Positions 17,937 through 21,990 of a stretch of 24,545 bases of DNA are shown here, one piece after another. The notes under the pieces are model-generated. The model was not told the origin of the DNA, did no database searches, and was given only the letters and a program-made list of their open reading frames with translations. Numbering within the stretch: position 1 is the first letter of the stretch; every line of letters begins with the position of its first letter. Source of the stretch: a virus; the IMG/VR virus record IMGVR_UViG_3300036770_000478, positions 1 through 24,545 of that record; one strand, 5' to 3'. The position numbers and the translations under genes were made by a program.

Positions 17937-18280
17937 TGCATCTCCTCAATGGTTATCTTCAACATTCCGCCGATATCTGGCGACCAGTAAATTCTCAGGT
18001 CTCGGATCTGGTTGTCGTCACCGAACACATCCGCATGTTGCAAAGAGTCCAATGTGCTTTTCAAAAGGTTGTCGAGGTCTCGCCTGCGGTTGTCCGGGCG
18101 GTGCGCCTCAATCGTGACCTTCAGGTTGCAGTTATAGCGCTTGACCATGCCCTGCTCCCAGATGTGCTTGATCACGGCTTCTCGGTACTTCCTGCCCTCC
18201 ACGCTGATCACCATGCGACCACGCCATTTGCGCCAGTAGCCGTTAACGCTTGGTGGCCACGGCAGGGTTACTTGGATCAT
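17933..18280 (-). CDS. rusA: RusA-type Holliday junction resolvase
   Basis: The start is placed at ATG 18280, giving 115 residues and an ATGA overlap with the helicase stop. The upstream in-frame extension is merely the helicase read out of frame. The N-terminus MIQVTLPWPPSVNGYWR is the typical RusA opening. The catalytic acids are in RRRDLDNLLK (D68, D70) and in FGDDNQI (D88/D89), matching the D70, D72, D91 spacing of E. coli RusA. RusA dimers cut four-way junctions symmetrically, useful for resolving replication and recombination intermediates before packaging. The length is normal. High confidence. Confidence 0.9.
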   Translation of the reverse strand: MIQVTLPWPPSVNGYWRKWRGRMVISVEGRKYREAVIKHIWEQGMVKRYNCNLKVTIEAHRPDNRRRDLDNLLKSTLDSLQHADVFGDDNQIRDLRIYWSPDIGGMLKITIEEMQ

Positions 18281-19254
18281 TTGAACTCCATCGGTTGGTC
18301 GTCCCAGTTCTCGATGAACTGCTGGCTCTCCCGGTGATACCAGAAGTTGTACCACTCCTCGTGTTCACCGTTTCTCTGCTTCTCGCACATCATCCGCATG
18401 TCCGGCACCATCACATCTGCCGTGCCGTTAACCTGACGGTCGTGCTCCTTCTTCTTGTTGCGCCAGACCAGCAAGACGTTATCCACCTGATCTGCAATCG
18501 ACCCGCTACCCTTCACATCGTTTTTGTTCGGGGTGGCCTCCTCGCTTGCCAGCTTGCGGATGTGGTGGACCAGATGGATGTGCATGTCCTCATCCCGAGC
18601 CAATGCCGTGATCTGATCGACGAAGGCCTTCTGGGCGTTGTAGTCATCCTCACCGCTCACGCACTTCATCAGGCTATCAACAAAAAGGTGCTTGATCCCC
18701 AACTCCTTTGAGCAGAACCTGCCCATGGCGATGACCTGCCGAGCGGTCACCGTTCCCTGCTGGTCGTAAAACCAGAGCTTGTCTCGGGTGAAGACCTCTA
18801 GGTTTTCAAGGTGGCGGTGCAAAACCGAAGCGGTAAACATCGGAACATCAATGTTCTCCCGCGAGAACTGCCGCAGCATCCGCATCATCGTCCTCTTGGG
18901 TTTCATCTCAAACGAGGCGATGCAGACCTTGTAGCCCTGTTGCATCAGACTCAATGCGATCTGCCCGGTGACCAAAGACTTGCCGCCACCGTTTGATCCA
19001 GCGTAAAGCGTGACCTCGCCAGGTCGAAACCGAAAGGTTGAGTGCGTCTTTAACCACGGCATTACCGCAGAGTCGTCCTTCACCGGGTGCAGGATGTCCT
19101 GCCACATCTGGTCGATGACGGCGTTTGAGTTGATAACCGACTTGCTTAGATCTTCGGGTTCAGCGTATAGATCCTCATCGATGTCGGACCTGCGTATGGC
19201 TTTAGAGCGACGGATCTCGTCAAGCTCTCGTGCGCGTTCTTCGATGTTAGACAT
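18277..19254 (-). CDS. Replicative DNA helicase, DnaB/T7 gp4-like RecA core
   Basis: 325 residues from ATG 19254, eight bases before the end of the CHC2 gene; the longer frame upstream is a shadow of that gene. Residues 79-93 give GEVTLYAGSNGGGKS (Walker A, K92). SFEM holds the catalytic Glu (E116). HLFVDSL gives Walker B (D193). HLVHHIRK (228-234) is the H3-like sensor, and KGSGSIADQVDNVLLVWRN is the DnaB arginine-finger region. A linker with acidic residues precedes the core. There is no N-terminal DnaB domain and no fused primase, so it is a helicase core like T7 gp4B. It works with the initiator and zinc-finger protein encoded just upstream. Confidence 0.9.
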   Translation of the reverse strand: MSNIEERARELDEIRRSKAIRRSDIDEDLYAEPEDLSKSVINSNAVIDQMWQDILHPVKDDSAVMPWLKTHSTFRFRPGEVTLYAGSNGGGKSLVTGQIALSLMQQGYKVCIASFEMKPKRTMMRMLRQFSRENIDVPMFTASVLHRHLENLEVFTRDKLWFYDQQGTVTARQVIAMGRFCSKELGIKHLFVDSLMKCVSGEDDYNAQKAFVDQITALARDEDMHIHLVHHIRKLASEEATPNKNDVKGSGSIADQVDNVLLVWRNKKKEHDRQVNGTADVMVPDMRMMCEKQRNGEHEEWYNFWYHRESQQFIENWDDQPMEFK

Positions 19255-19657
19255 GATCGAGTGCCTCTCTGATTCGGTCACGGGCGGTAACGCACCGCTC
19301 GCGGTCTTGTTCTGGGATGGTCTTGCCTGCGGCAATGTCGTTGGCAACGATAGAGACAATCAGAGCCTCCCGTTCGATGATCCGCAAAAGATCACTCGCA
19401 AAGAACCGCGGCTTCATTCGTGGTTGATGGTGATCGAGCTTCTCCGGAAAGAGGTCCGTGACCTGCATTCCAACCGCACCCACAACGTCATGGACCGAGC
19501 ACCCACCGAAGCAATGAAGCAGAACCCGGCCATCCTCACCCTCCCGAATCGCAAGCGAGGGGGAGCCGTCGTTATGGGCAGGGCAGCAGGCGGTCCATGA
19601 GCCGTTACGTCCCTTGACCTTCTTGAGCCTGCCAAGCAGATTTTCGATAGGGTTCAT
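19247..19657 (-). CDS. CHC2 zinc-finger primase fragment (no TOPRIM)
   Basis: The start is set at ATG 19657, giving an ATGA overlap with the DUF1376 gene; 136 residues. Residues 23-35 are ACCPAHNDGSPSL and residues 45-53 are VLLHCFGGC, forming the primase-type zinc site (C25, H28, C49, C53) that reads the DNA start trinucleotide. The remainder is helical (ASDLLRIIEREALIVSIVAN) and carries no TOPRIM Glu or Asp-x-Asp motif. It is therefore only the template-recognition module. Lying directly before the helicase, it resembles a split version of the T7 gp4 zinc-finger plus helicase. Who synthesises primers is not clear from this window. Confidence 0.85.
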   Translation of the reverse strand: MNPIENLLGRLKKVKGRNGSWTACCPAHNDGSPSLAIREGEDGRVLLHCFGGCSVHDVVGAVGMQVTDLFPEKLDHHQPRMKPRFFASDLLRIIEREALIVSIVANDIAAGKTIPEQDRERCVTARDRIREALDHV

Positions 19658-20304
19658 ATGCCCTTCCGTTCTACCACCGCGGTGGCTCGTTTTTTGATCC
19701 ACTCGGCTTCAAACCCCTGCCAGCCGTTAGCCACGCATTGCGTCAACGCATCCTGCAGGCTGAGACCTGCCTTCGTAGCCTCCGCCCTGAGCCGGGTGAG
19801 GGCGGTCGCGGTGACGGGTGCCTTCTTTACTCTTCGTAAGGAAAGCCAATCCGCCCAGACCTGTTCCGATACATCGTCTGGTCGAGCCATCGACCGTCTA
19901 TTGTTTTTATATTCTTGGTTATTGGTTATTGGTTCTTGGTTGGCATCGATTTTCTTAGTCGGAGCATCCTCCGAGGATGCTTGGGGTATGCTCGGAGCAT
20001 TCTCCCATCTAGCTTTAGCCGCTCTCGACCCCTTCTCCTGCCGCTTTCGGTACGCATCTATCTCAATGTCGCACCTCTTATTCCTATAACAATCAACGTC
20101 TTCCGTAAAAAAATGCTCGAGAATGCTCGTAACATCCTCCAAGGATGCTCCAAGCATAAAAGCTAGTCTTTTCGGGTCTTTCGGAAGAGGTGTCTCACTC
20201 TCGTAATAACGCCATATGAGCCTGAGATACACCATGCATTGGCAATCATTCAAACGGTTTGTAGACCGAATGAAGTCGCCGATATGATGCTGGTAGTAGT
20301 ACAC
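19654..20304 (-). CDS. DUF1376-type replication initiator (O-like)
   Basis: The start is GTG 20304..20302 because AAGGAG lies exactly six bases upstream; the longer TTG frame lacks an SD. 216 residues. The N-terminal domain (1-80) reads YYYQHHIGDFIRSTNRL, then MVYLRLIWRYYESETPLP, a DUF1376 winged-helix fold found in phage initiators. A low-complexity linker (ASSEDAP, NQEPITNNQEYKNN) follows. A C-terminal domain ends ANGWQGFEAEW, typical of helicase-loader-contacting tails. The linker and nearby codons contain the repeat cluster at 19901-20157, proposed as the origin. It probably binds origin DNA and recruits the DnaB-like helicase encoded downstream. Confidence 0.82.
   Translation of the reverse strand: MYYYQHHIGDFIRSTNRLNDCQCMVYLRLIWRYYESETPLPKDPKRLAFMLGASLEDVTSILEHFFTEDVDCYRNKRCDIEIDAYRKRQEKGSRAAKARWENAPSIPQASSEDAPTKKIDANQEPITNNQEYKNNRRSMARPDDVSEQVWADWLSLRRVKKAPVTATALTRLRAEATKAGLSLQDALTQCVANGWQGFEAEWIKKRATAVVERKGI
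19901..20157. repeat. Candidate replication origin inside the DUF1376 gene (iterons + AT-rich 7-mers)
   Basis: Four tandem 7-bp units TTGGTT[A/A/C/G] start at 19915, 19922, 19929 and 19936, flanked by AT-rich DNA from 19901. The period of 7 is not a codon multiple. Next come a 19-bp palindrome AGCATCCTCCGAGGATGCT (19963-19981, 9-bp arms) and a 13-bp palindrome ATGCTCGGAGCAT (19988-20000). A second cluster holds AATGCTCG at 20112 and 20122, and CATCCTCCAAGGATGCT at 20133-20149, which differs from 19965-19981 at one base. The hexamer GAGCAT/ATGCTC occurs six times between 19962 and 20150. The layout resembles lambda ori within gene O. Confidence 0.55.
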
Positions 20305-20350
20305 GCCAATCTCCTTTGGTGCTGGCCTATCCGGTGGAAATTCCGGCAGG

Positions 20351-20446
20351 TCAGTACCCGTTGCGGGTAACAAATCGGTCAGATAGACCAGCCCAAAAGA
20401 GACTGACAGTCTGACCCGCTATGCGCTTTCCACGGCGCGAAAACAT
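20351..20446 (-). CDS. Possible 31-residue peptide
   Basis: ATG 20446..20444 directly follows the TAA of the 107-residue gene, with GGAG eight bases upstream, and the frame runs to TGA at 20353..20351. The product is basic with one aromatic stretch (QTVSLFWAGL). It overlaps the inverted-repeat region and may only be a chance frame. The alternative is an untranslated structured leader for the DUF1376 gene. Confidence 0.3.
   Translation of the reverse strand: MFSRRGKRIAGQTVSLFWAGLSDRFVTRNGY
20355..20416 (-). other. Inverted-repeat cluster upstream of the DUF1376 gene
   Basis: Three inverted repeats sit in 62 bases: TACCCG-TTG-CGGGTA (20355-20369, perfect), AGACTG-A-CAGTCT (20400-20412, perfect), and outer arms GGTCAGA (20377-20383) with TCTGACC (20410-20416). 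They lie between the two DUF1376 paralogues and would form hairpins in the leftward transcript just before the initiator SD. Confidence 0.5.
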
Positions 20447-20770
20447 TTATACCACTCCTCGACGCTTCCTACCACCCTTGTGACCATTACGACGATTGGT
20501 GACGCTAACGAACTTCCGGTGATCAATCTCCCTCTGCCATGCTTCATGAACATATCCCTCCGGGGTTGGTTTAAAAAACTTCTCCAATACCGGAGCCACC
20601 ACATCGTCATCCAACTTTACCCAATCCGAAACGGTTTCGATCTCCGGTGGGAAAGGCTTCTCAGTCGTGTAGTAGATGTCCCTCATACGGCGATACGCCA
20701 GATCTTCTGCGTCTGGTAACTCGTCCGTCTCGGCAACGTACTTCGGTATGTCGTGCTTGTACCAATCCAT
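20447..20770 (-). CDS. Short DUF1376-like paralogue
   Basis: 107 residues from ATG 20770 behind AGGGAGT, nine bases after the regulator stop codon begins the junction. The sequence parallels the N-terminal domain of the next gene: WYKHDIPKYVAETDELPD, then AYRRMRDIYYTTEKPFPP, then VLEKFF, against the neighbour's YYQHHIGDF, MVYLRLIWRYYESETPLP and ILEHFF. It lacks the linker and C-terminal loader domain and instead ends in a basic tail (NGHKGGRKRRG) suited to DNA contact. It may bind the same origin sites, help or modulate initiation, or act as a transcription factor. The fold is fairly sure; the role is inference. Confidence 0.75.
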   Translation of the reverse strand: MDWYKHDIPKYVAETDELPDAEDLAYRRMRDIYYTTEKPFPPEIETVSDWVKLDDDVVAPVLEKFFKPTPEGYVHEAWQREIDHRKFVSVTNRRNGHKGGRKRRGVV

Positions 20771-20779
20771 GTTGACTCC

Positions 20780-20980
20780 CTAAGAAAAAATTTCAGGCAG
20801 AAGATCCTTCCGCGTAACGGCTCCGTCTGTGAACTGCTCAATCAAGACCGCTAACTCCGGACTTGGCTTACGACGCCTTGACACAATCAGCGACATCCAA
20901 GTTCTCGTGATGCCGAGCTTGGCAGCCAGGTTCGCAGTCGTGCCTCTCGGCTTGTCTTTCAGGTACTGATCCAACTGCAT
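20780..20980 (-). CDS. YdaS/Cro-like helix-turn-helix regulator
   Basis: 66 residues from ATG 20980 behind a perfect AGGAGGT. The helix-turn-helix is at about 14-36: TTANLAAKLGITRTWMSLIV, followed by SRRRKPSPELAVLIEQF and VTRKDLLPEIF. This C-terminal pattern is typical of YdaS-type Cro-like repressors in prophages. It is the first gene of the leftward operon and lies next to a 16-bp perfect palindrome, so autoregulation of the divergent region is likely. No CI-type partner or YdaT is seen in the window, so whether it serves a lysogeny switch or only early-gene timing cannot be told. Confidence 0.85.
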   Translation of the reverse strand: MQLDQYLKDKPRGTTANLAAKLGITRTWMSLIVSRRRKPSPELAVLIEQFTDGAVTRKDLLPEIFS

Positions 20981-21010: not shown

Positions 21011-21037
21011 AAAATAGCACCCTAATTAGGGTGACAA
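21011..21037 (-). promoter_or_regulatory. Putative leftward early promoter
   Basis: Read leftward, TTGTCA (21037..21032) and TATTTT (21016..21011) are 15 bases apart, with TGC directly before the -10 box making an extended -10 (TGnTATTTT). The 16-bp palindrome fills the spacer. It is the best promoter candidate for the replication operon; the short spacer is a weakness. Confidence 0.4.
21018..21033. promoter_or_regulatory. Perfect 16-bp palindromic operator
   Basis: CACCCTAATTAGGGTG is an exact 16-bp palindrome lying between the proposed -35 and -10 boxes of the leftward promoter. A half-site CACCCTAA recurs at 20998-21005. It is a probable binding site for the YdaS/Cro-like protein encoded immediately leftward. 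Confidence 0.65.
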
Positions 21038-21041
21038 GTTT

Positions 21042-21053
21042 ACTACCGGTAGT
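21042..21053. promoter_or_regulatory. Second palindrome in the divergent region
   Basis: ACTACCGGTAGT is a perfect 12-bp palindrome, unlike the 16-bp one in sequence, so it may bind a different protein. A third, CCGTGTCACGG (5-bp arms), is at 21103-21113. GTGACA/TGTCAC occurs at 21031, 21052 and 21106. No clear rightward promoter could be identified in 21054-21182. Confidence 0.45.
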
Positions 21054-21365: not shown

Positions 21366-21990
21366 CAATTCCACTAGCAGTTTCAAACCCGTTCCCTCGG
21401 GAATGCACCTCGCTCGTTGTTACCGGGTCATTGACTTTGGTACGCAGACGAGCACTTACCAAGGCAAAACCAACCACCTGCACAAGGTCCTCGTAGGCTT
21501 TGAGGTCCATGGTGAGGACGCAGACGGCAAGCCCATCCGGACGGACGACGGCAAACCAATGATCATTGCCAAGCAGTACACGCTCTCGCTTAACGAGAAG
21601 GCAAACCTTAGGGCAGATCTCGCCTCATGGCGTGGTCGTGACTTCACACCGGAAGAGATTCGTGGCTTTGACATGAAGAACATCCTCGGGCATTGGGCGA
21701 TGATCTCTGTGACCTCTTCAGAACGTGACGGGCGGGAGTACACCAACATCTCTAACGTCAACCCGGTACCCGCGCAGGTCAAGAAGGCTGGTCTGCCTGA
21801 GGGTGAGAACGAACTGGTTTACTGGCCGATCTCTGAAGGTAGCCTTGAAGAGCTTGAGAAGTTCGGCAAGGGCATCCAAGAGAAGATCAAGGGAAGTCCT
21901 GAATTTCAGCGTCGCGTGAATGGAGCACAGGAATATGCCAAAGCCACCGGGGGATCATTCGATGACCTTAGAGACGACATCCCGTTCTAA
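21346..21990 (+). CDS. Single-stranded DNA-binding protein
   Basis: 214 residues from ATG 21346 behind AAAGGAAA. The N-terminal part is beta-rich, fitting an OB fold: MHLARCYRVIDFGTQTSTYQ, then HKVLVGFEVHGEDADGKP, then MIIAKQYTLSLNEKANLRAD. A central helix ILGHWAMISVTSSERDG follows. The acidic tail ends DDLRDDIPF, the D-D-x-I-P-F C-terminus used by bacterial SSB and phage analogues to recruit partner proteins. It would coat single strands exposed by the helicase and feed recombination. The layout is of the phage SSB type rather than E. coli SSB. High confidence in function, lower in exact family. Confidence 0.85.
   Translation: MSIIASSNSTSSFKPVPSGMHLARCYRVIDFGTQTSTYQGKTNHLHKVLVGFEVHGEDADGKPIRTDDGKPMIIAKQYTLSLNEKANLRADLASWRGRDFTPEEIRGFDMKNILGHWAMISVTSSERDGREYTNISNVNPVPAQVKKAGLPEGENELVYWPISEGSLEELEKFGKGIQEKIKGSPEFQRRVNGAQEYAKATGGSFDDLRDDIPF

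Follow-up and report, generated by a model that had tools for sequence, protein, structure and literature searches.

A two-period repeat element in the codons of phage DUF1376 genes: a probable replication origin

What could a run of tandem and inverted repeats be doing in the middle of a phage gene? The question is raised by a 24,545-base virus record, hereafter the window (the whole stretch of DNA analyzed here, probably a fragment of a larger genome), in which such repeats lie inside a gene of the DUF1376 family. From the letters of this DNA, an earlier note had proposed a replication origin embedded in the initiator gene, as in phage lambda. We examined the element in the window, its distribution, the level at which it is selected, and the proteins that may read it.

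RESULTS

The repeats lie in a replication gene cluster

Genes follow one another in the order YdaS/Cro-like regulator, stand-alone DUF1376, full-length DUF1376, CHC2 zinc-ribbon, DnaB-like helicase, and RusA. The features of the locus are as follows.

20780..20980, minus strand: YdaS/Cro-like regulator gene, operon head (Pfam PF15943, 4.9e-10)
20447..20770, minus strand: second DUF1376 gene, stand-alone, 107 aa, lacking both linker and C-terminal module (PF07120, 4.2e-15)
19654..20373, minus strand: DUF1376 initiator-like gene, 239 aa, in the order DUF1376 domain, flexible linker, C-terminal module
20056..20298, minus strand: DUF1376 domain, predicted winged-helix-like, candidate binder of the 11-bp array
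20112..20150, minus strand: second 11-bp-period cluster, in the DUF1376 domain, GAGCATCCTTG GAGGATGTTAC GAGCATTCTCG AGCATT
19961..20004, minus strand: 11-bp-period array of inverted half-sites, GAGAATGCTCC GAGCATACCCC AAGCATCCTCG GAGGATGCTCC (coding strand)
19988..20000, no strand: perfect 13-bp palindrome ATGCTCGGAGCAT, part of the 11-bp array
19963..19981, no strand: perfect 19-bp palindrome AGCATCCTCCGAGGATGCT, part of the 11-bp array
19915..19942, plus strand: four TTGGTTN heptamers (AACCAAN on the coding strand) in 7-bp tandem, candidate melting or single-strand element
19898..19957, no strand: A+T-rich trough holding the heptamers, 31% G+C, candidate unwinding element
19247..19702, minus strand: CHC2 zinc-ribbon (primase-type) gene (Pfam PF01807, 1.5e-5)
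18277..19359, minus strand: DnaB-like helicase gene, presumed client of the initiator (Pfam PF03796, 1.7e-17)

The N-terminal part of the full-length DUF1376 protein matched PF07120 in Pfam (3.4e-18; 66.2 bits against a curated cut-off of 30.1), and its C-terminal part matched phrog_678, 'replication initiation O-like', in PHROG (1.3e-20). The GTG at 20302-20304 is the more likely start codon of this gene. The stand-alone DUF1376 protein might be a regulator or a co-binder of the 11-bp array. A pair of stand-alone and full-length DUF1376 genes was also present in a relative (L003). Two perfect palindromes in the divergent intergenic region (CACCCTAATTAGGGTG, 16 bp, 21018-21033; ACTACCGGTAGT, 12 bp, 21042-21053) are probably operators of the YdaS/Cro-like gene.

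The element combines a 7-bp and an 11-bp period

The four heptamers followed one another with an exact 7-bp period in A+T-rich DNA, as had been described, and the 60-bp trough around them was within the lowest 0.1% of 60-bp windows for G+C in the window. When the whole 24.5 kb was scanned, no other repeat reached 20 of 24 at lag 7. The two perfect palindromes reported nearby were also found, both as parts of one array in which GAGCAT half-sites (repeat family D1) were spaced 11, 11, and 11 bp. GAGCAT/ATGCTC hexamers were six in number (19962, 19988, 19995, 20113, 20123, and 20145), and the second cluster, likewise claimed by the earlier note, had the same 11-bp spacing and suppressed synonymous change (2 of 23 codons). 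Heptamers and 11-bp array both sit in linker codons, between the DUF1376 domain and the C-terminal module. That note had missed both the 11-bp spacing of the palindromes and how general the element is.

We resampled synonymous codons while keeping the protein fixed (5000 trials). Four consecutive AACCAAN never appeared, nor did six or more GAGCAT/ATGCTC hexamers, in agreement with the view that this number exceeds chance; a palindrome with 9-bp arms appeared in 1.8% of the trials. The earlier note had also argued that a 7-bp period cannot come from codon repetition. This argument did not hold as worded, since a 7-residue peptide repeat (NQEPITN) could yield such a period; excluding a peptide cause thus needed the separate tests given below, and these did exclude it as the sole cause.

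The element accompanies DUF1376 across phages

We searched 2.9 million viral contigs for arrays of four AACCAAN and found them in at least 119. Among the viral ORFs collected through the array, its median position was residue 129, on the coding strand, and DUF1376 was present in 122 of the 125 that were aligned (a count that includes L004 and the ORF of the window). Their C-terminal halves belonged to many families (O-like, DnaD-like, DnaT, and Phg_2220_C). The array is thus tied to DUF1376 rather than to the C-terminal module. Such free exchange of modules exactly at the array border is what one would expect if the array were a recombination joint, kept for swapping C-terminal modules. Heptamers diverge while their period stays, however, and no module border coincides with the 11-bp module or with the intergenic copies described below, which makes a recombination joint very improbable.

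We then considered genes gathered by DUF1376 protein similarity alone, namely 69 non-redundant genes including that of the window and its relatives. At lag 7, the score was 19.8 of 24, compared with 11.2 in controls with shuffled codons. Lags 7, 14, 21, 11, and 22 stood out, with most other lags at about the control level. The 7-bp threshold was passed in 61 of the 69 linkers versus none of 506 flanking windows, and the 11-bp threshold in 49 of 69 versus 5 of 506. Upstream of the 7-bp array, lag 11 reached at least 16 of 24 in 63% of genes, compared with 0.2% in controls; there, lag 11 (with 22) alone was elevated, and lags 8-10 and 12-13 remained at the control level. The 11-bp array usually stood directly before the 7-bp array, the two being separated by a median of 7 bp.

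We extended the set to 173 non-redundant DUF1376 genes, some of them from loci to which the array itself had led. A 7- or 6-bp array was present in 161 of these genes, an 11-bp array in 105, and neither in 8. We scanned six phage records in full (AB_SZL4, BA3, Vibrio 1.052, IFTN2, AH02, and PGA; 243 kb), and all repeats above threshold at lags 6/7 and 11 were inside the DUF1376 gene and none was outside it. Vibrio phage 1.052 showed, like the window, a second lag-11 cluster in the DUF1376 domain. Going by existing annotation, 7 of 14 named phages had an adjacent helicase, loader, or replisome gene. The element is common to hundreds of related phages, and DUF1376 itself is present in many phages, in prophages, and in the Rac prophage of E. 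coli.

Heptamer arrays of this kind are widespread, and a neutral microsatellite, such as those of cyanobacterial and Bacteroidota chromosomes, could in principle account for the phage arrays. Yet location and order are fixed in phages, and the scorable viral arrays whose fetched locus had no DUF1376 all lacked the 11-bp module, with one exception, for which DUF1376 is present in the full record. With position and flanks thus tied to the DUF1376 gene, a simple microsatellite was refuted for the phage element, and we give neutral expansion hardly any credence. AACCAAN satellites are indeed common in cyanobacterial and Bacteroidota chromosomes (e.g., L231 and L277), apparently unrelated to the phage element, and a pattern scan of genome contigs, being mixed with these satellites, was left out of the counts. 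Plasmid RA3 was rejected as an AACCAAT carrier, the matches being primers.

The element is selected as DNA

Most arrays are coding, and the linker is predicted to be flexible, which would suit selection of the NQEPITN repeat as a peptide. We therefore scanned for the peptide NQEPITNNQ with all codons free. It can be encoded in 3072 synonymous ways, yet one identical coding was used at 85 of 100 distinct sites, which are not fully independent (related phages) and some of which had been fetched earlier by exact DNA pattern. The array also occurs in three reading phases, its variants give other peptides, and the intergenic elements encode nothing. The peptide as sole cause was thus refuted, and selection of the linker as a peptide is extremely unlikely. 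Comparing the window gene with that of its 87%-identical relative L003, codons differed at 4 of 50 identical residues in the element and at 40 of 130 elsewhere (Fisher P = 0.001).

Sequence variants pointed in the same direction. Where AACCAAN was absent, AAACAAN, ACACAAN, ACCCAAN, or AACCAGN stood in its place with the period kept. In a few phages (Pseudomonas AH02 and Bordetella IFTN2; L483 and L477), the hexamers ATACAG and AACCAG occupied the position of the heptamers, showing that the length of the repeat unit can change. A blind scan for predicted variant arrays placed 27 of 63 in DUF1376 genes; the others were five intergenic elements, or else plain microsatellites with neither the 11-bp module nor DUF1376 in the fetched locus.

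The five intergenic elements belong to two lineages (L522, L534, L537, and L550 in one, L541 in the other). They consist of five ATGCGAACGCA-like 11-mers (four in L541), followed by four to five ACCCAAN and then by ATATATATA. In these lineages, the DUF1376 gene (PF07120, 7e-20) is encoded on the opposite strand at a distance of about 2 kb and is devoid of repeats. This natural separation of the element from the gene is the strongest evidence for selection at the DNA level.

A further array, L197, was rejected as a third detached origin: the same genome holds a degenerate in-gene array, so the L197 array is an extra copy. In the L559 region (G001:C1:36303-36329), we noticed a perfect second heptamer array with the 11-bp module, intergenic and, along the record, 30 kb from a DUF1376 gene that carries a degenerate in-gene array.

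Collectively, these data show an element that is conserved and selected as DNA, that joins two periodic modules in a constant order, and that accompanies DUF1376. Chance, codon or peptide repetition, and microsatellite expansion are excluded as its causes for the family. The expectation that homologues would keep the repeats as DNA while the linker protein varies was strongly borne out.

The DUF1376 domain is a candidate reader of the 11-bp array

In the structural model of the window DUF1376 protein (mean pLDDT 87.8), the linker (about aa 127-168) was of low confidence and unstructured. The best PDB neighbors of the DUF1376 model in VIA-align were nearly all winged helices, with Z up to 6.6, while Foldseek against the PDB gave no match at E <= 0.001, and sequence search detected no relative of solved structure. 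The DUF1376 domain may thus be winged-helix-like, a weak assignment with Z under 7 and no Foldseek match at that threshold. Among gene pairs with alike DUF1376 domains and unlike C-terminal modules, 71% shared the type of 11-bp repeat, versus 38% of the converse pairs, for a baseline of 31-35%. Such covariation fits recognition of the 11-bp array by the DUF1376 domain, but could also come from physical linkage on the DNA. The type of heptamer tracked neither the DUF1376 domain nor the C-terminal module, so its reader is perhaps a shared or host-conserved partner.

A winged-helix look is found in many repressors, and the repeats clearly resemble protein sites. Might they then be an operator or other regulatory site, through which DUF1376 or another phage regulator controls transcription or DNA partition? 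In nearly every case, however, the site is found in mid-gene rather than at a promoter, and an A+T-rich tandem array is always paired with it. Moreover, the gene context is one of helicases and loaders, and the C-terminal modules match replication-initiator families. We hold a regulatory site to be unlikely on these grounds.

In the open literature searched, where five papers name DUF1376, we found no experiment on any DUF1376 protein and no description of the element.

DISCUSSION

The reading that we favor, and consider probable on sequence evidence, is that the element is a phage replication origin, lying in its initiator gene or occasionally detached from it, in the manner of lambda. The earlier proposal of a lambda-like origin in the DUF1376 gene is in this sense supported through DNA-level conservation, from which we infer the origin function. 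In lambda, ori comprises inverted iterons and a 40-bp A+T-rich region inside gene O; initiator binding and transcription open this strip, and the next gene delivers the helicase (PMC5043065). The DUF1376 element likewise has repeats of inverted symmetry beside an A+T-rich strip within a presumed initiator gene, upstream of a gene for helicase delivery. It differs in that lambda has four 19-bp inverted repeats for O dimers, whereas half-sites recur here every 11 bp, and in that the A+T-rich strip is itself an ordered array of 7-bp, sometimes 6-bp, units. In Pfam, the N-terminal part of the protein matched DUF1376 alone and not the lambda O family, and similarity of the phrog_678 'O-like' C-terminal part is at most partial.

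Other origins share parts of this design. Iteron plasmid origins (RK2, P1, and F) associate phased initiator repeats with an A+T-rich region that may contain repeats bound as single strand (PMC5043065, PMC10797057). The candidate initiator sites described here are similarly phased with the DNA helix (period 11), although the initiator is unrelated: that of the window had no Pfam match to plasmid Rep families. At bacterial oriC, double-strand DnaA boxes are followed by short-period DnaA-trios read as single strand (PMC10797057). A like two-part logic is proposed for the DUF1376 element, which contains neither DnaA nor the trio sequence and has a period of 7, not 3. In the Rac prophage of E. coli, the best-known DUF1376 gene, ydaU, follows ydaS/ydaT and precedes the ydaV ATPase gene, an order resembling that of the window; its linker contains dyads TGTTCAAACA but no heptamer array. 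The position of Rac oriJ was not found in the literature searched. With ydaU lacking heptamers as well, we dropped oriJ as an experimental anchor.

The earlier note had also predicted that GC skew would turn near the element. The skew gave no useful confirmation: its minimum in the window was at 21492, about 1.5 kb off and close to where transcription diverges. Six other phages had a minimum set by gene direction and not by the element. Since skew follows transcription direction in the genomes tested, it does not discriminate, and we rejected it as an origin marker. The off-element skew, together with the absence of heptamers from ydaU and the few DUF1376 genes with neither array, nonetheless counts against the origin reading.

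If the element is an origin, initiation might proceed as follows. The DUF1376 domain would assemble on the inverted half-sites of 19961-20004, helped by those of 20112-20150. With an 11-bp spacing, there would be one half-site per helical turn, all on a single face of the duplex. The assembly would strain the adjoining A+T-rich heptamer array (19915-19942) and lead to its melting. Steps of 7 bp ignore helical phase and do not keep to one face, which suits heptamers that would be read as single strand by a protein. The C-terminal module, variable between phages, would then hand over the helicase or loader encoded next door.

More tentatively, and as a possibility that we would not yet call probable, DUF1376 may mark out a class of initiators that is widespread among phages and has an origin grammar of its own. 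This grammar would comprise a double-strand 11-bp ladder read by DUF1376 and varying with the domain, a near-universal AACCAAN ladder read as single strand, and interchangeable modules for helicase delivery. It would be an independently evolved counterpart of DnaA boxes and DnaA-trios, usually written in codons.

The element predicts a role and DNA sites for DUF1376, a family of no known function, and would make it possible to annotate the origins of many phages with nothing but their sequence. Such a compact two-period origin would also be a test case for initiators that bridge double-strand binding and strand opening.
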